Assembly (NCBI RefSeq): GCF_017351175.1 | Contig: NZ_JAFMPN010000007.1 | Location: 1-64,000, forward strand | Direction of reading: 5' to 3' | DNA length: 64,000 nt | From: Desulfovibrio sp. Huiquan2017 | GTDB taxonomy: Bacteria > Desulfobacterota > Desulfovibrionia > Desulfovibrionales > Desulfovibrionaceae | Shown here: positions 37,766 through 46,318 of the stretch, one piece after another | How the letters are laid out: each line of letters opens with the position of its first letter | Numbering within the stretch: position 1 is the stretch's first letter | Position numbers and translations under genes: made by a program | Notes under the pieces: generated by a model | The model's database searches: none | Told to the model about the DNA's origin: nothing | The model's input: the letters and a program-made list of their open reading frames with translations, nothing else

Positions 37766-37835
37766 GTGTCGCACACGCAACGCTTGTGTCGCACAATGTC
37801 GCACAATGCGACACATGAGACAGCCGTGCGACACA
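37766..37835 (+). promoter_or_regulatory. cluster of TGTCGCAC repeats, likely enhancer-binding sites
   Basis: TGTCGCA-CAA-TGCGACA (37797-37813) is a perfect 17-bp palindrome. Around it lie GTGTCGCACAC (37766-37776), TGTCGCACA (37787-37795) and inverted GTGCGACA (37826-37833). The cluster is ~80-145 bases upstream of the sigma-54 promoter, the usual distance for an NtrC-type activator. Confidence 0.7.
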
Positions 37836-37911
37836 ATTCGCGCTGCGCTGTATTCTTTAGACTTTTTATAACCCGTGGGAACGACAGATTATAATACAAA
37901 TAATGTGTCGC

Positions 37912-37927
37912 TGGCACGCCGGTTGCT
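37912..37927 (+). promoter_or_regulatory. sigma-54 promoter
   Basis: TGGCACG-CCGG-TTGCT matches the -24/-12 consensus TGGCACG-N4-TTGCW at every position. Transcription should start near 37938, 40 bases before the regulator gene. Confidence 0.85.
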
Positions 37928-37977
37928 AATACCTGGATACTATTTGCCAAGAACTTCAAACACTGCGGGAGGGCATG

Positions 37978-38226
37978 ATGTTTGCGAAAAACGTAACCAA
38001 GGTTGTTCAGGATTGCATTCTCGACAGCGGCATTCAGGCCAAGGTCGTGGCCCAAAAAATCAACAAGCCGTATTCGACCCTGATGCGGGAAATCAACCCC
38101 TTCGACGCCAGCGCCAAACTGGGCGCGGAGACCTTGCTCGAAATCATGAAGGTCACACGCGACATTCGTCCGCTCCAGTTCATGGCCTCGGAGATGGGCT
38201 TCAACCTGGAAACAGGCAACGCTTAA
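37978..38226 (+). CDS. phage CII-like (Phage_CP76) regulator 1
   Basis: 82 residues. It matches the small phage-regulatory CII family: ...VAQKINKPYSTLMREINPFDASAKLG... followed by IRPLQFMASEMGF. The helix-turn-helix is the KPYSTLMREINP part. The ATG at 37978 is preferred over the one three bases earlier: GGGAGGG is then 4 bases away, and MFAKNV aligns with MFEKDL of the paralogue at 44215. It is driven by a sigma-54 promoter, unusual for a phage-type regulator, and no phage genes are near. Confidence 0.85.
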   Translation: MFAKNVTKVVQDCILDSGIQAKVVAQKINKPYSTLMREINPFDASAKLGAETLLEIMKVTRDIRPLQFMASEMGFNLETGNA

Positions 38227-38248
38227 TCCCCCTGGGGGATCGATTTTC

Positions 38249-38276
38249 GGCCGGGCCCCACGCCCGGCCTTTCTTC
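38249..38276 (+). terminator. terminator after CII-like regulator 1
   Basis: GGCCGGGC, loop, GCCCGGCC, then TTTCTT. It is flanked by two further hairpins: AATCCCCC/GGGGGAT at about 38226-38240 and GGGGATTA/TAATCCCC at 38277-38297. Confidence 0.8.
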
Positions 38277-38297
38277 GGGGATTATTCCCTAATCCCC

Positions 38298-38571
38298 GGG
38301 GAAAACCAGCAGACGGTGCAAGCCGCTTCGCGACGCGATCCAGGCGATCTCGCCGAGGGCGGGCAACGACTCGTTCTTGCATCCCCTTTCTGCATTTTCG
38401 GCGCGATTTTTCCGCCACGCAGCCTTTCGTCCACAAAAGGCCATAGCCATACACGCCCCTTTCCGACCGTGTCGCACACACTCGGGAAAACGGCTTGGCA
38501 CCTTGCCAATATCGCCCGTTCGGCTTAGAAATACCGAAGTATTCTCCAACCCGAGGACGGACGCGAGCCCC
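38298..38571 (+). promoter_or_regulatory. upstream region of the kinase cassette, with GTGTCGCACAC and an NF1-like palindrome
   Basis: GTGTCGCACAC (38469-38479) repeats exactly the 11-mer at 37766-37776. TTGGC-ACCTT-GCCAA (38495-38509) is a perfect inverted repeat 16 bases later. I see no sigma-54 or sigma-70 promoter with confidence; the kinase ATG is at 38572. Confidence 0.45.
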
Positions 38572-40590
38572 ATGACCACACATCCCGGAGACAGGCTGCC
38601 GAGAGCCGATTCGCTCAGCCGCCGGGCCAAGCTGGCCCAGTTGGCCTTCATCTCGGCCATCGTCCTGATCTTCTCCTGCGCGCTCATCCTGTTCAATGCC
38701 TATCGGCTGCACGTGCGCCTGTCCGAACGCGCGGACAGCATCGCCCACCTGGCCCGGACCAGCCTGGCCAGCGCGGTCTGGCAGGTAGACTACGCCTCGG
38801 CCCGCGACTTCATCGACGCCGTGCTCCAGGACGACACCGTGGCGTTCGCCCAGGTGGTCACCGGCCGCGAGGTCATGGCGGCCAAAAGCCGCCCCCGTTT
38901 CGCCGGGCACGGCTTCGAGTACTTCACCAAGGACCGGCGGTTCCTGACCAAGTCCGTGGAAATCCGGAAATACGGCGACTGGATCGGCTCATTCAACTTG
39001 GCCGTATCCACCGAGGGCAACCTTCAGGAAATGGCCATGTACGTGGGACTGACCTTCGCCCTGGCCCTGCTCCTGATCCTGACCCTGACCCTGGCCGCGG
39101 TCCGCTACATGCGCAAACATTTCCTGACTCCGCTCATGGACCTGGAGGAATCGGCCACGACCATCGCGGACGGCAACCTGGACGCGCCCATCGACACCTC
39201 GGCCTCCAACGAATTGGGCAGCCTGGCCCGGGCCATCGACGACATGCGCCAGTCCGTCCGCCACCTGATCCATGACCTCCAGGAGGCCAACAACAAGCTC
39301 CAGAACCATCAGAACAGCCTGGAAAGCATGGTCAAGGAGCGCACCGAGGAACTCAAGCGCAAGAACGACTCCCTGAACGGAGCCCTGGAACAGGTCCGCC
39401 GGGCCAAAAAGGCCGCCGAGGTGGCCAACACGGCCAAAAGCAGCTTCCTGGCCTCCATGAGCCATGAGATCCGCACGCCCATGAACGCCATCCTGGGCAT
39501 GGCCGACATCCTTTGGGAGACCGATCTGTCCGAAGATCAGGCGCGCTACGTGGAGGTCTTCCGCACCGCGGGCGAGAGCCTGCTTGAAATCCTCGACGAC
39601 ATCCTGGACCTGTCCAAGATCGAGGCCGGGCACCTGACCCTGGAAAAGACCTGGTTCCCGCTGACCGACATCCTGGACCGGACCTGCGGCGTAATCCAGG
39701 CCAAAGCCTCGCAAAAGGGCCTCGGCCTGAGCTGCGTCGCCGCCCCGGAGGTTCCGGCGCGCATCAACGGCGACCCCAACCGGCTGCGCCAGGTGCTCTT
39801 CAACCTGCTGGGCAACGCCATCAAGTTCACGGACTCGGGCTCGGTGGCCCTGAACGTGGATACGGCCTCGCGCGACGACGATTCCGTTCTGCTCCATTTT
39901 TCCATCACGGACACCGGCGTGGGCGTGTCCGGCGACAAGCTCAGGGCTATCTTCGAGGCCTTCACCCAGGCGGACAGCTCCACCACCCGCCAATTCGGCG
40001 GCACCGGCCTGGGGCTGGCCATCAGCAAGGAATTGGTCCACATGATGGACGGCCGCATCTGGGCCGAATCCATGCCGGGCAAGGGCAGCACCTTCCATTT
40101 CACGGCCCGCTTCGGCACACCTCGCCCCGGGGACGTCGCTCAGCCCGAGCCGCCCCGGCCGCCCGAGGAACCCTCCCTGCCGCCGCTGAACATTCTCATG
40201 TTCGAGGATTCCCGGTACAACGCCTTCGTGGCCCGGACCTACCTCGACGCCACCCCCTGCCGCCTGACCGTGACCGAGGACGGCAAGTCCGGGGTCGAAC
40301 TGTTCAAGAAAGGCGGCTGGGACCTGGTTCTCATGGATATCCAAATGCCGGTCATGGACGGCCTCGAGGCCACCCGGACCATCCGGCAGTGGGAGCGCGA
40401 ACAAGGGCTCGACCCTGTGCCCATCGTGGTCATGACCGCCTTTGCCATGGACGACGGCACGCGCCGCTGCCTGGAGGCGGGCGCGGACTCGCACCTGCCC
40501 AAGCCGGTCAAGAAGAGCGCCTTGTTCGAAGCCATTCGCAAACTGGCCGACAAAAATGCACGAAAAGGAGAGGAATCGGATCATGACTGA
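38572..40590 (+). CDS. membrane hybrid histidine kinase with C-terminal receiver
   Basis: 672 residues. TM1 is at ~25-45, a ~120-residue periplasmic domain follows, TM2 is at ~162-182, HAMP at ~182-235, then a coiled coil (~240-290). The kinase core has FLASMSHEIRTPMNAILGM as H-box, NLLGNAIKF as N-box, DTGVGVS and FGGTGLGLAIS. The receiver (~540-660) has phospho-Asp in LMDIQMP and Lys in PKPVKK, though its acidic pocket reads MFEDSRYN in place of VDDN. It is first gene of a coupled cassette; its stop overlaps the next start. The separate binding protein two genes on may be its ligand-presenting partner. Confidence 0.9.
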   Translation: MTTHPGDRLPRADSLSRRAKLAQLAFISAIVLIFSCALILFNAYRLHVRLSERADSIAHLARTSLASAVWQVDYASARDFIDAVLQDDTVAFAQVVTGREVMAAKSRPRFAGHGFEYFTKDRRFLTKSVEIRKYGDWIGSFNLAVSTEGNLQEMAMYVGLTFALALLLILTLTLAAVRYMRKHFLTPLMDLEESATTIADGNLDAPIDTSASNELGSLARAIDDMRQSVRHLIHDLQEANNKLQNHQNSLESMVKERTEELKRKNDSLNGALEQVRRAKKAAEVANTAKSSFLASMSHEIRTPMNAILGMADILWETDLSEDQARYVEVFRTAGESLLEILDDILDLSKIEAGHLTLEKTWFPLTDILDRTCGVIQAKASQKGLGLSCVAAPEVPARINGDPNRLRQVLFNLLGNAIKFTDSGSVALNVDTASRDDDSVLLHFSITDTGVGVSGDKLRAIFEAFTQADSSTTRQFGGTGLGLAISKELVHMMDGRIWAESMPGKGSTFHFTARFGTPRPGDVAQPEPPRPPEEPSLPPLNILMFEDSRYNAFVARTYLDATPCRLTVTEDGKSGVELFKKGGWDLVLMDIQMPVMDGLEATRTIRQWEREQGLDPVPIVVMTAFAMDDGTRRCLEAGADSHLPKPVKKSALFEAIRKLADKNARKGEESDHD

Positions 40591-41116
40591 TGCGCCGAGT
40601 TGCCGCTTGTTGTGGTGTCACGGCTCCCTGAGCAGCCCCTGGGGAACCAAGAGTCTGGCCTTGGCCGATGTGGCCGGGGAATTCGGTTTGACCATGGAGG
40701 GGCCCGATTTCAGCGATCTCGCCGCCCCGGACGAACGGGTGGAACGCCTGTTGGCCATCCTGGCCGAGGATGACCGGCCCACCATCCTGGCCGGATCGTC
40801 CATGGGCGGTTACGTGGCAGCGGCCGCGTCCATGCACGCCCGGGTCCCGGCCCTGTTTCTCCTGGCCCCGGCCTTCTATCTCCCCGGCTACGCCGTGCAC
40901 GTCTTCCCCAGCCTGCCCGGCCGGGTCACCGTGGTCCACGGCTGGGACGACGACGTGGTCCCGGTGGACAACGCCATCCGCTTCGCCCGGACCCACAAGG
41001 CGACTCTGCACGTGCTCGCCGACGGCCATCGGCTGGAGAAGTCCACCGAAACCTTATGCGTCCAGTTTGCCCGATTTCTGGCCTGCGCCAAGGCGGACTT
41101 GGAGAAAAACGCATGA
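40583..41116 (+). CDS. alpha/beta hydrolase
   Basis: 177 residues, small for the fold and similar in size to YqiA/YcfP-like esterases. The nucleophile elbow is GSSMGGY, the acid is in HGWDDDVVP and the His in ADGHRL, so the triad looks complete. The N-terminal strand CRLLWCHGSLSSPWG forms the oxyanion loop. No signal peptide, so cytoplasmic. Substrate unknown. It overlaps the kinase gene by 8 bases and the next gene by 4 (ATGA), indicating tight co-translation. Confidence 0.85.
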   Translation: MTDAPSCRLLWCHGSLSSPWGTKSLALADVAGEFGLTMEGPDFSDLAAPDERVERLLAILAEDDRPTILAGSSMGGYVAAAASMHARVPALFLLAPAFYLPGYAVHVFPSLPGRVTVVHGWDDDVVPVDNAIRFARTHKATLHVLADGHRLEKSTETLCVQFARFLACAKADLEKNA

Positions 41117-42090
41117 CCCGAGCCCCCTTCGCAGCGAGGTTGGCCGTGCTGTGCGCCGCTCTCCTGCTCCCGGCCCTTGCGGCCGCCCAAGGGCCGGTCC
41201 CGGAAAAGGCGTCCCTGATCCTGCAATGGCTGCCCCAGGCCCAGTTCGCGGGTTACTTCGTGGCCAAGGACAAGGGGTTCTACGCCGAGGAGGGCATCAA
41301 CCTGACCATCTTGTCCGGCGGCCCGGACATCCTGGCCAGCGAAGAACTTGAGAACGGCAAGGCGGACTTCGCCACCATGTTCCTGACCACCGGCCTGCAG
41401 CGACGCGAGTCCCTGCCCCTGGTCAACATCGGCCAGATCGTCCAGCATTCGGCGCTCATGCTCATCGCCAAGGCGTCGTCCGGCATCAAAACCTTCCGCG
41501 ACCTGGACGGCAAAAAAGTCGGGTTGTGGGCCAACGAATTCCAGATCCAGCCCCTGGCCCTGTTCCGGCGCGAGAACATCCACGCGACCGTGGTCCCGCA
41601 GACCTCGTCCCTGGACCTGTTCATGCGCGACGGCGTGGCCGCCTGCTCGGGCATGTGGTACAACGAATACCACACGCTCCTGACCTACGGACTGGACGAG
41701 AAGGACCTGCGGCCCCTGTTCTTCACCAACGAGGGCCTGAACTTCCCCGAAGACGGCATCTACTGTCTGGAGCGGACCGCCGCCGAGCGCCCCGAGCTGT
41801 GCCAAGGGCTGGTCCGGGCCACCCTCAAGGGATGGCGCTATGCCTTTGAGCATAAGGACGAGGCCCTGGCCATCGTGCTTAAGCGCATGGAAGCGGCCCG
41901 GGTCCCGGCAAGCCGAGCGCACCAGCGCTGGATGCTCGAACGCATGGAGGACGTAACCATGCCCGACGGGGCCGCCATGGGCGTGCTCCGCCGCGAGGAT
42001 TTCAAGCGAGTGGTCGGGGCCCTGCTCGGGACCGGGTTCGCGACCCACCCCCCGAGCTACGAGGACTTCTACAAAGGAGCAATGCAATGA
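41113..42090 (+). CDS. THI5/NMT1-like periplasmic binding protein
   Basis: 325 residues with a signal peptide (AVLCAALLLPALAAA). The mature protein has the family pattern LILQWLPQAQFAGYFVAKDKGFYAEEGINL and an FRDLDGKKVGLWANEF segment. Relatives bind thiamine precursors, aliphatic sulfonates or nitrate-like anions, usually for an ABC transporter. None is here, and it sits between a hydrolase and a phosphatase gene with ATGA overlaps on both sides, so a sensory role is likely. In other proteins this same domain occurs as the sensor of GGDEF proteins and kinases. Confidence 0.88.
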   Translation: MTRAPFAARLAVLCAALLLPALAAAQGPVPEKASLILQWLPQAQFAGYFVAKDKGFYAEEGINLTILSGGPDILASEELENGKADFATMFLTTGLQRRESLPLVNIGQIVQHSALMLIAKASSGIKTFRDLDGKKVGLWANEFQIQPLALFRRENIHATVVPQTSSLDLFMRDGVAACSGMWYNEYHTLLTYGLDEKDLRPLFFTNEGLNFPEDGIYCLERTAAERPELCQGLVRATLKGWRYAFEHKDEALAIVLKRMEAARVPASRAHQRWMLERMEDVTMPDGAAMGVLRREDFKRVVGALLGTGFATHPPSYEDFYKGAMQ

Positions 42091-44021
42091 GGCGGTATCC
42101 CATCGCCCTCAAGCTGACCTTTCTGATCCTGTCCTGCGCCCTGGTCATCCTGGCCGCCATCGTGGCCTACAACTACGTCGCGTCGCGAGCCGTCATCCTG
42201 CGCCAGGCCGAGGACAATTCCCGCCTCCTCGTGGCCGGGACCGCCGGACGCATCGACTCGGTCCTGTCCGGGGTGCAAAAGGTGGCCGAAAACGTCGCCT
42301 TTTCCATGGAAGACACCACCCTGTCCAAGCAGGAGATCCTCGACCTCGACCGGCGGGTCCTGGCCAACAACCCCGAGATATACGGGATGGCCATCGCCTT
42401 CGAGCCGTACTTCGTGCAACGCGACAAACGCTATTTCGCGCCCTACCACTACCGTTCGGGCGGGCGCATCGGCTTCACCATGCTCGGCGACGCCAATTAC
42501 CGTTATTTTTACATGGACTGGTACCAGATTCCCAAAGAACTGGGCCGCAGCGTCTGGACCGAGCCCTACTTCGACGAGGGAGGCGGCGGCGTGCCCATGG
42601 CCACCTACTCCGTGCCCTTCTACCGCACCGTGGACGGCAAGTCCGTGTTCGCGGGCGTGGTCACGGCGGACATCTCCCTCAACTGGCTACAGGATCTGGT
42701 CAGATCCATTCGGCTATACGACTCGGGCTACGCCTTTCTCCTGTCCCGCCACGGCACTTTCATCACCCACCCGGACAAGTCCCTGGTCATGAACCAGACC
42801 ATCTTCTCCCTGGCCGAGGAACGCGGCTCCAAGGAACTGCGCGAACTGGGCCAGCGCATGCTCTCGGGCAAGGCCGCTTTCATCCCGGTGGGCACGCTTC
42901 TCTCGCCCGAGGAAAGCTACATGTTCAGCGACAGGCTCGACTATGGCGGCTGGAGCCTCGGCGTGGTCTTCCCCCGCGACGAAATGCTCGGCGACGCTTA
43001 CCGCCTGTCCAAGTCCATGCTCGCCATCGGCGCGGTCGGCTTTGTGCTCCTGGCCCTGGTCACCATGGGCATCGCCCGGCGCATCACCCAGCCATTGCGC
43101 GAACTGTCCGAGTCGGCCCGTAAAATCGCCTCCGGCAATCTGAACCTCACCCTCCCGGAAAAACGCGCCAACGACGAGGTCGGCGATCTGACCGACTCCT
43201 TCAAGTATATGAAAAACTCCCTCAAGGAGTTCATCCACGACCTGACCGCCACCACCCAGGCCAAGGAGCGCATCGAGTCCGAACTGCGCATCGCCCGGGA
43301 AATCCAAATGGGCATCCTGCCCAAACTCTTCCCGGCCTTCCCGGACCGCAAGGAATTCGAGGTATTCGCCTCCATCGAACCCGCCAAGGAAGTGGGCGGC
43401 GACCTCTATGATTTCTTCTTCGTGGACGAGACCCATTTCTGCTTCCTGGTGGGCGACGTCTCGGGCAAAGGCGTGCCCGCCGCCTTCTTCATGGCCGTGA
43501 CCAAAACCCTGCTCAAGGTCGTGGCCGAACGCGGCCTGGACCCCGGCGAAATCCTGACCAAGGTCAACGCCGACCTGGCCGCCAAAAACGAGTCGTGCAT
43601 GTTCGTGACCCTGTTCCTGGCCATCATGGACATCGAGACGGGCGAGACCCGCTATGCCAACGCGGGCCACAACCCGCCGGTCTTCCTGCCCTGCGGCGGC
43701 ACGCCCGAAATCGTTCCGCCCCTGGGCGAACCCGTGGCGGGCATCATGGAGGACATGCGCTATTCCACCAAGACCATGACCCTCAAGCCCGGCGACCTGC
43801 TCTTCATCTATACCGACGGCGTGACCGAAGCCATGAACCCCGAGGGGGCCCTGTTCGGCGAAAAACGGCTGATCAGGCTGCTGGCCGAGCAGCGCGAACC
43901 CCTCGCGCCCGAACTGGTCAAGGACGTGGGGGCGGCCATCCATGCCTTTGCCCGGGGCGCGGAACAGTCCGACGACATCACCATGCTGGTCATGCAGTTC
44001 ATGGGCCAATGCGCCCCTTAG
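42087..44021 (+). CDS. SpoIIE/RsbU-type phosphatase with Cache and HAMP
   Basis: 644 residues. TM1 is at ~10-30, a double-Cache periplasmic domain spans ~40-305 (with YFYMDWYQIPKELG and WTEPYFDEGGG, typical of dCache_1), TM2 is at ~308-330, HAMP at ~330-385. A coiled coil leads into the PP2C-like SpoIIE domain: EVGGDLYDFF, VGDVSGKGVPAAFFMA, NAGHNPP, IYTDGVTEA and SDDITML supply the metal-binding Asp residues. Such phosphatases act on an anti-sigma antagonist, but no STAS or anti-sigma gene is next to it. It is the last gene of the cassette. Confidence 0.93.
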   Translation: MRRYPIALKLTFLILSCALVILAAIVAYNYVASRAVILRQAEDNSRLLVAGTAGRIDSVLSGVQKVAENVAFSMEDTTLSKQEILDLDRRVLANNPEIYGMAIAFEPYFVQRDKRYFAPYHYRSGGRIGFTMLGDANYRYFYMDWYQIPKELGRSVWTEPYFDEGGGGVPMATYSVPFYRTVDGKSVFAGVVTADISLNWLQDLVRSIRLYDSGYAFLLSRHGTFITHPDKSLVMNQTIFSLAEERGSKELRELGQRMLSGKAAFIPVGTLLSPEESYMFSDRLDYGGWSLGVVFPRDEMLGDAYRLSKSMLAIGAVGFVLLALVTMGIARRITQPLRELSESARKIASGNLNLTLPEKRANDEVGDLTDSFKYMKNSLKEFIHDLTATTQAKERIESELRIAREIQMGILPKLFPAFPDRKEFEVFASIEPAKEVGGDLYDFFFVDETHFCFLVGDVSGKGVPAAFFMAVTKTLLKVVAERGLDPGEILTKVNADLAAKNESCMFVTLFLAIMDIETGETRYANAGHNPPVFLPCGGTPEIVPPLGEPVAGIMEDMRYSTKTMTLKPGDLLFIYTDGVTEAMNPEGALFGEKRLIRLLAEQREPLAPELVKDVGAAIHAFARGAEQSDDITMLVMQFMGQCAP

Positions 44022-44145
44022 ACGCATGGACGGAAAGCCCGCAATCCGTCATCTCGGCAACCATGAAAAACAGGATGTTATAGCGATATAGCCCGGCCAT
44101 CGCACGCGCCGAATTCGATTTTTACCCCCCCTTTTTCAAATTTCG

Positions 44146-44174
44146 TTGACGAAAAAGGGAAAACTGGGCTAACT
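44146..44174 (+). promoter_or_regulatory. promoter for CII-like regulator 2
   Basis: TTGACG (44146-44151), 17-base spacer, CTAACT (44169-44174). The -35 box lies inside a TTTCG-TTGA-CGAAA inverted repeat (44141-44154) that could be an operator. Unlike regulator 1, there is no sigma-54 box. Confidence 0.6.
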
Positions 44175-44214
44175 TCCATTACTAGGCAGAATATCCAACA
44201 TGTGGGGGGTAAAC

Positions 44215-44523
44215 ATGTTCGAGAAAGACCTGACCAAGAAAATGCAGGACATCGTTCTGGAAGGACACATCCCGGCCAAGGAAGTGTCCAAGCTGATCAA
44301 GAAGCCGTATTCCACATTGCTTCGGGAACTCAACCCGTTCGACGCCCACGCCAAGCTCGGGGTCGAGACCATGTTTGAAATCGTCAAGGCGACACACAAC
44401 ATCTCGGTCCTTGAGTTCATGGCCAGAGAACTGGGGTACACGCTCCGGCCGCTCGACGCCATCCAGCCCGCCAGGCAGGGGACCAGTTCCCGCCGTGTTC
44501 ACAAGCAGGAAGCGACCATGTGA
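44215..44523 (+). CDS. phage CII-like (Phage_CP76) regulator 2
   Basis: 102 residues. The first ~80 align with regulator 1: VSKLIKKPYSTLLRELNPFDAHAKLG and ISVLEFMARELGY. A 20-residue basic Ser/Arg tail (SSRRVHKQ) is extra. The ATG at 44215 is taken because it aligns with the paralogue start and has GGGGGG upstream; another ATG lies at 44200. With regulator 1 it brackets the kinase-hydrolase-binding protein-phosphatase cassette. Confidence 0.85.
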   Translation: MFEKDLTKKMQDIVLEGHIPAKEVSKLIKKPYSTLLRELNPFDAHAKLGVETMFEIVKATHNISVLEFMARELGYTLRPLDAIQPARQGTSSRRVHKQEATM

Positions 44524-46005: not shown

Positions 46006-46318
46006 TGCGGCCTCCGGCGGCCGGGGCGCCGCCCCGGACCCCGCCAGAGAACCTTTTGAAAAAGGTTCTCTGGACTCTCCAAAACTTCTTGGGTGCCTTC
46101 GGCAAGGACGTGCTCACGCAAAAACATATGCTTTTCCATGAAGGAAAAGAACGATCTAATCCAAATGACGCCGCCCGGCCTCGCACCCTGCGAAGCAGCG
46201 ACAAAAAGTTTAGGAAGGAAAGGGAGATGGGGGTCCGGGGGAAGGGGGAAAGGAAAGCCCTTTTCAAAGGGTTTCCTTTCCCCCTTCCCCCGGCCGCCGG
46301 AGGCATTCTCCTCCGACG
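46006..46318. repeat. intergenic hairpin-rich element between the aldolase and ychF genes
   Basis: No gene. It has a GGGGCGCCGCCCC palindrome, then a stem AGAGAACCTTTT/AAAAGGTTCTCT (46046-46071), and a 22-bp perfect stem at 46235-46256 with 46272-46293, extended inward by CCCTTT/AAAGGG. The arms are almost pure purine and pyrimidine (GGGGGAAGGGGGAAAGGAAA). A looser relative lies at 47520-47590, so it looks like a dispersed intergenic element. It separates convergent genes and may stop transcription both ways. Confidence 0.6.

Follow-up and report, generated by a model that had tools for sequence, protein, structure and literature searches.

The locus at positions 37,978 to 44,523 of a 64,000-nucleotide (nt) stretch of Desulfovibrio sp. 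Huiquan2017 (contig NZ_JAFMPN010000007.1; the whole stretch is called the window here) raises the question of whether four overlapping genes, coding for a hybrid kinase, a hydrolase, a periplasmic binding protein and a phosphatase, make up one signalling system. The original prediction, made from the sequence alone, took them for a coupled cassette flanked by two related small CII-like regulators, here CIIa and CIIb. We find that the four genes are probably not one system. The last two (41113-44021) are likely to encode a two-protein transmembrane sensor, in which contact of the ThiY-like binding protein with the Cache domain of the receptor would control an output that can be exchanged and is usually a partner switch. 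The four genes are the following:

38572 (likely start)-40590, + strand: hybrid histidine kinase with HAMP, HisKA, HATPase_c and Response_reg (receiver) domains, identified with Pfam
40583-41116, + strand: cytoplasmic alpha/beta-hydrolase, UPF0227-like (26.3 bits, cut-off 21)
41113-42090, + strand: NMT1/THI5 (ThiY-like) periplasmic binding protein (PF09084, 126.2 bits)
42087-44021, + strand: dCache-HAMP-SpoIIE (PP2C) receptor phosphatase (SpoIIE 174.2, dCache_1 73.5 and HAMP 55.2 bits)

Successive genes overlap by 8 nt (40583-40590), 4 nt (41113-41116) and 4 nt (42087-42090), and the N-terminus of the binding protein is signal-peptide-like as judged by eye. The predicted arrangement of four overlapping genes between two related small regulators was found in all its parts.

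What is conserved is the binding protein with the Cache-HAMP receptor behind it, a combination found in many bacterial phyla. An alignment of the binding protein was used alone to scan genome contigs, which encoded at least 573 relatives, and the best 80 loci were taken. These carry the labels Desulfobacterota, Omnitrophota, Kiritimatiellota, Lentisphaerota, Verrucomicrobiota, Planctomycetota, Chlorobiota and others, of which single ones may be wrong because the loci are nearly all metagenome-assembled; five (L095-L098 and L174) repeat genomes of the genus. Two loci (L150 and L167) end at a contig edge just past the binding-protein gene, and in every one of the 78 that could be evaluated the sequence behind the binding protein matches the Cache-HAMP receptor, with gaps of -32 to +100 nt measured from the end of the BLAST match. 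A second sample, drawn by phylum, contained the binding protein in 20 of 148 genomes (E 1e-60, window genome counted). The receptor adjoined it in 19/19 of the other loci, 17 of which were new (L210 and L212 were already among the best 80), the receptor of L222 being cut by the contig end. As a control, the seven regions around the eight other NMT1-family proteins of the window genome gave no receptor, STAS or RsbW match.

The front of the receptor is kept while its output is exchanged. Among the 76 loci in which the receptor reaches its output domain (it is cut off in L124 and L145), 68 are phosphatase-type, a call resting on similarity to the SpoIIE receptor along the full length, and in the other eight the same Cache-HAMP front leads into a class III cyclase (PF00211, 79.5-97.1 bits). 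A search of about 3.5 kb around each pair located STAS and/or RsbW genes for 48/68 phosphatase-type and 0/8 cyclase-type pairs (Fisher p 0.00016), and, with long flanks only, for 33/45 and 0/5, respectively (p 0.0029); the p values are only a guide because the rows are related. The phylum sample added three cyclase-type receptors (L218, L221 and L223, assigned by similarity and, for L223, from its sequence as well), with STAS/RsbW near none of them, and 15 phosphatase-type receptors, with STAS/RsbW near seven; one receptor was cut off. On the binding-protein tree the cyclase type requires two changes and forms one group in 0/200 bootstrap trees. The partner genes of the relatives retain the expected residues: the phospho-acceptor Ser of STAS (S54/S55) is present in 20/20 rows, and E43, N47 and D77 together with G102, G103 and G105 of the RsbW-like HATPase (N- and G-box; PF13581 in the one scanned) in 21/21. 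The predicted coupling of an orphan binding protein to a partner-switching Cache phosphatase is supported, and the STAS and RsbW-type genes that the prediction called for are present in relatives.

Some further variation was seen around the receptor. In L119 (8965-11322) a Cache-HAMP-SpoIIE receptor is fused to an RsbW-type HATPase_c_2 domain. A Lactamase_B_2 metallo-hydrolase gene lies near the phosphatase receptor in 13/116 loci (L103, L106, L109, L112, L113, L114, L116, L118, L120, L127, L128, L143 and L153), and another gene of the metallo-beta-lactamase (MBL) fold in 9/116.

The two halves of the receptor differ in how closely they follow the binding protein. In 69 phosphatase-type pairs, binding-protein distances correlated with those of the Cache half at r 0.77 and of the PP2C half at 0.53, the partial correlations were 0.69 and 0.29, and none of 2000 permutations reached either value. 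With 57 non-redundant pairs the partial values were 0.69 and 0.19, and the difference was positive in 500/500 subsamples. When the 42 loci with all parts were compared, the binding protein gave partial correlations of 0.77 with Cache and 0.05 with PP2C, while STAS leaned to PP2C (0.43, and 0.22 with Cache). As indirect evidence, this comes close to the pattern expected if the binding protein docks outside the cell and phosphotransfer takes place inside it.

How the kinase and the hydrolase relate to this pair was followed in 36 genomes of the genus, the window genome counted. The neighbours are not peculiar to one genome: the binding protein and the phosphatase stand between the kinase and CIIb in 24/36, the hydrolase following the kinase in 22 of these 24 loci (L048 and L060 gave no hydrolase match). 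The six-gene grouping is a genus-level neighbourhood, and its recurrence makes it more than chance. To this extent the predicted grouping stood; as a single system it is not supported. The kinase was matched in 36/36 genomes (E 1e-150), pair present or not, and the binding protein in 29 (E 1e-30), with no match at that threshold in the other seven. In twelve genomes, then, no binding protein lies behind the kinase: seven have no match and five (G012, G014, G017, G018 and G024) have the pair elsewhere. In ten of the twelve, the gap between kinase and CIIb is 569-1252 nt, which by length alone leaves room for the hydrolase; in G032 it measures 3825 nt, and in G008 the two genes are on separate contigs. 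Because the kinase is present in all 36 genomes and the pair is variably placed or absent, the kinase neighbourhood belongs to the genus backbone and the pair behaves as a separate module. The hydrolase goes with the kinase, and these two, with the CII-like genes, appear to form a distinct set at the level of the genus. No match to the window kinase or hydrolase was seen in the loci outside the genus, within the stretches examined and the thresholds used.

These data bear directly on the possibility that the four genes form one pathway, with the binding protein, kinase and phosphatase reading one signal and the hydrolase acting on the signal molecule. The stop/start overlaps of 4-8 nt and the neighbourhood shared in 24/36 genomes speak for it. 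Set against them are the twelve genomes just described, a rhodanese gene that separates the two halves in 20/24 loci, and kinase matches that are interrupted or short in G015, G027, G029 and G031, three of which retain the pair. One common pathway is in our judgement improbable. The kinase was also considered as TorS (TIGR02956, 445.9 bits), which did not reach the equivalog cut-off of 676.5, and, more widely, as a TorS/LuxQ family member partnered by the binding protein, for which the scores were likewise under the cut-offs. Pfam gave no match in its periplasmic part, and its residues 1-305 matched only HAMP, coiled-coil or kinase entries of PDB. In G009 the binding-protein gene matches as two overlapping pieces.

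Three genes known from the loci of relatives are absent from the window locus: one for a secreted double-rhodanese protein, placed between hydrolase and binding protein, and those for STAS and an RsbW-like HATPase, placed after the phosphatase. The rhodanese gene is present in 20/24 loci with kinase and pair, the exceptions being the window, L041, L048 and L053. STAS and RsbW genes follow the phosphatase in 11/24 loci with the module behind the kinase, and in all five copies of the pair sited elsewhere (L061, L062, L063, L068 and L069). A candidate STAS target of the phosphatase, whose identification had been proposed as a check on the prediction, is found beside it in relatives and not in the window, whose lineage has lost STAS and RsbW from the locus.

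Since the local genes are gone, the window phosphatase may use another target. Family searches of its own genome matched STAS five times, STAS_2 three times, SpoIIE four times and HATPase_c_2 17 times (nine of these 17 above the cut-off). One STAS protein, on contig C4, is small (110 amino acids), free-standing and encoded beside an 866-amino-acid HAMP-SpoIIE-HATPase protein; the remaining STAS matches lie within open frames of 430-919 codons. A simple relocation of the lost STAS and RsbW genes within the genome was rejected, as each had only one distant match, on C4, and the HATPase there is part of the SpoIIE protein. The C4 STAS would be the likeliest present substrate of the window phosphatase, and another partner may be encoded elsewhere in the genome, off C4. 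On contig C15, a HATPase_c_2 match and a SpoIIE match lie about 8.5 kb apart. A related genome, G033 (L176), has a closer, cassette-like STAS-RsbW pair far from its own binding protein and phosphatase genes.

Loss of these genes could also mean that the pair in the window lineage is a decaying remnant. The absence of rhodanese, STAS and RsbW at the locus would agree with this, as would the close relatives G007 and G010, which are without the pair altogether. However, both genes are open, the binding protein is 77-80% and the phosphatase 83-85% identical to those of the three nearest relatives, and all five Asp residues of the PP2C/SpoIIE domain are kept, as they are in 22/22 other PP2C rows of alignment A4. 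Decay is accordingly a very improbable explanation.

For the two-protein sensor, the following course of events may be proposed. The ThiY-like periplasmic protein would bind a small molecule, probably a heterocycle or a small anion, and would dock on the dCache domain encoded by the gene that follows. HAMP would relay the change inward and switch the SpoIIE/PP2C phosphatase. Where all partners are present, this enzyme would dephosphorylate a STAS protein that the RsbW-type kinase phosphorylates, and the phosphorylation state of STAS would decide what the RsbW-type protein holds. The output is exchangeable, a class III nucleotide cyclase following the same front in some lineages. For the phosphatase of the window lineage, the target may be the free-standing C4 STAS or another one. 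As to the ligand, a thiamine-like compound would fit the fold of the binding protein. A three-subunit, xanthine-dehydrogenase-like molybdenum (Mo)-hydroxylase set was found near the pair in 11/116 loci of different lineages (L065, L101, L102, L105, L107, L125, L126, L137, L148, L161 and L171), and these neighbours possibly hint at a heterocycle. We advance only tentatively, with slightly less than even confidence, the wider proposal of a modular and widespread class of binding-protein-gated Cache receptors, in which a ThiY-like protein and a Cache domain drive a PP2C switch or a class III cyclase in response to a pyrimidine- or purine-like compound.

Several observations weigh against the sensor as proposed. 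The 80 loci were the best by similarity, are mutually related and come nearly all from metagenome-assembled genomes. The correlation of the binding protein with PP2C also lay beyond all 2000 permutations, and RsbW showed no preference for PP2C (partial 0.40 with Cache and 0.31 with PP2C, n = 42). STAS/RsbW genes are missing nearby in 20/68 phosphatase-type pairs, of which 12 have long flanks to either side, in 8/15 of the phylum sample, and at the locus in 13 of the 29 pair-bearing genus genomes (present in 16). A single origin of the cyclase type may be compatible with the tree if well-supported branches alone are considered. Finally, docking of the binding protein on the Cache domain is, like the ligand, inferred, and the Cache domain could bind a ligand of its own.

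The last point leads to an alternative in which the binding protein feeds an unlinked ATP-binding cassette (ABC) importer, the Cache phosphatase senses another ligand alone, and the genes are merely co-regulated. NMT1-family proteins are commonly transport proteins, and the Cache fold matches direct binders of small molecules such as PctD with choline and a uracil chemoreceptor. Nevertheless, no permease or ATPase of an importer was present among the eight neighbouring window genes scanned, and no permease of the ABC-import kind was recognised by eye among the gene clusters recurring in at least 5 of 75 loci, a LolD-like ATPase appearing at scattered offsets in 10 of the 75. Moreover, the co-variation is stronger with the Cache half and the pairing outlasts the swap of output. 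Mere co-regulation with an importer is for these reasons unlikely, and the binding protein-gated receptor is preferred.

The two small regulators and the elements around them are these:

37912-37927, + strand: sigma-54 -24/-12 promoter-like site 5' of CIIa (11/11 consensus bases)
37975-38226, + strand: CIIa, CP76/CII-like small regulator (PF06892, 37.7 bits)
38249-38269: terminator-like hairpin 3' of CIIa
44200 or 44215 (start)-44523, + strand: CIIb, second CP76/CII-like regulator (PF06892, 34.2 bits)

CIIa and CIIb are paralogues that share a 202-nt stretch at 70% identity, and CIIa matches CIIb at 56%. At least two matches were found in 35/36 genus genomes, and one in the fragmented genome G008. 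The kinase and CIIa are no more than 500 nt apart in 25/36 genomes, and in G003, G004 and G016 CIIa is on the far side of the kinase; the position of CIIb upstream of a class II aldolase gene is kept. A role as cassette-specific regulators is not supported, as the genes occur with or without the pair across the genus and a terminator-like site follows CIIa. CIIa is probably outside the transcript of the kinase, although the hairpin is weak as evidence because terminator-like sites in the whole region number 8 against 7.4 expected. The sigma-54-type site was found 5' of CIIa in 19/19 genus loci with 10-11 of 11 bases, where 4.5% of random 420-nt stretches reach 9. Repeats of TGTCGCA/TGCGACA occur upstream of CIIa (37766-37927), five in the window and 1-7 in each of the 19 loci, and none before CIIb or the binding protein. 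In the D. vulgaris sigma-54 regulome paper (PMC4641369), a term search of the main text returned neither GTCGC, GCGAC nor CII. Further downstream, 3' of the aldolase gene, are a 33-nt inverted repeat (46230-46298), whose arms are 88% complementary and 3 nt apart, and a perfect 17-nt pair (46010-46026/46288-46304).

Among known systems, TorS and LuxQ are receptors stimulated by the solute-binding proteins TorT and LuxP, and the pair described here likewise has a periplasmic binding-protein gene adjoining a transmembrane receptor gene. Excerpts of a 2022 survey of solute-binding proteins (PMC9602780) list chemoreceptors, kinases, diguanylate cyclases/phosphodiesterases and Ser/Thr kinases as receptors that such proteins activate, and name phosphatases and adenylate cyclases as receptor types outside that list. 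In the loci L075-L078, related NMT1 domains (30-33% identical) are fused to GGDEF, to two PAS-kinases (PAS-histidine kinase) and to PAS-GGDEF-EAL and so head one polypeptide, whereas binding protein and receptor here are two; these fusions also count in favour of the proposed sensor. Receptors for amino acids of the dCache type have an Arg two residues ahead of a conserved WY; no Arg stands at that position in 26/26 rows of alignment A4. The thiamin-binding ThiY/THI5 proteins 3ix1 and 4nmy have W-x-P-N-x-x-H where the present family has W-x-P-Q-A-Q-F, with Q42, Q44 and F45 identical throughout (33/33).

Compared with the RsbU-RsbV-RsbW and SiaA-SiaB-SiaC switches, the pair has a binding-protein gene in front as presumed input, and the window, which has the PP2C/SpoIIE phosphatase of an RsbU/V/W-type switch, is missing the STAS and kinase genes at the locus. 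Judged from its abstract, SiaABC (PMC7647112) is the nearest described partner switch; a binding protein is unmentioned in that abstract, unlike the pair here, and the NCBIfam SiaA model gave 94.2 bits against a cut-off of 700. Searches of open-licence papers in PMC found no description of the pair, subscription papers lying outside their scope, and it is probably an undescribed two-part sensor of small molecules. If so, PP2C phosphatases and class III cyclases would join the outputs of indirect sensing through periplasmic binding proteins, partner switches, which often respond to unknown signals, would gain a defined input, and a two-gene system would be at hand across phyla in which docking and output swapping are directly testable. 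The pair combines two known principles, the pairing of a binding protein with a receptor as in TorT-TorS and LuxP-LuxQ, and output by a partner-switch phosphatase or a cyclase.

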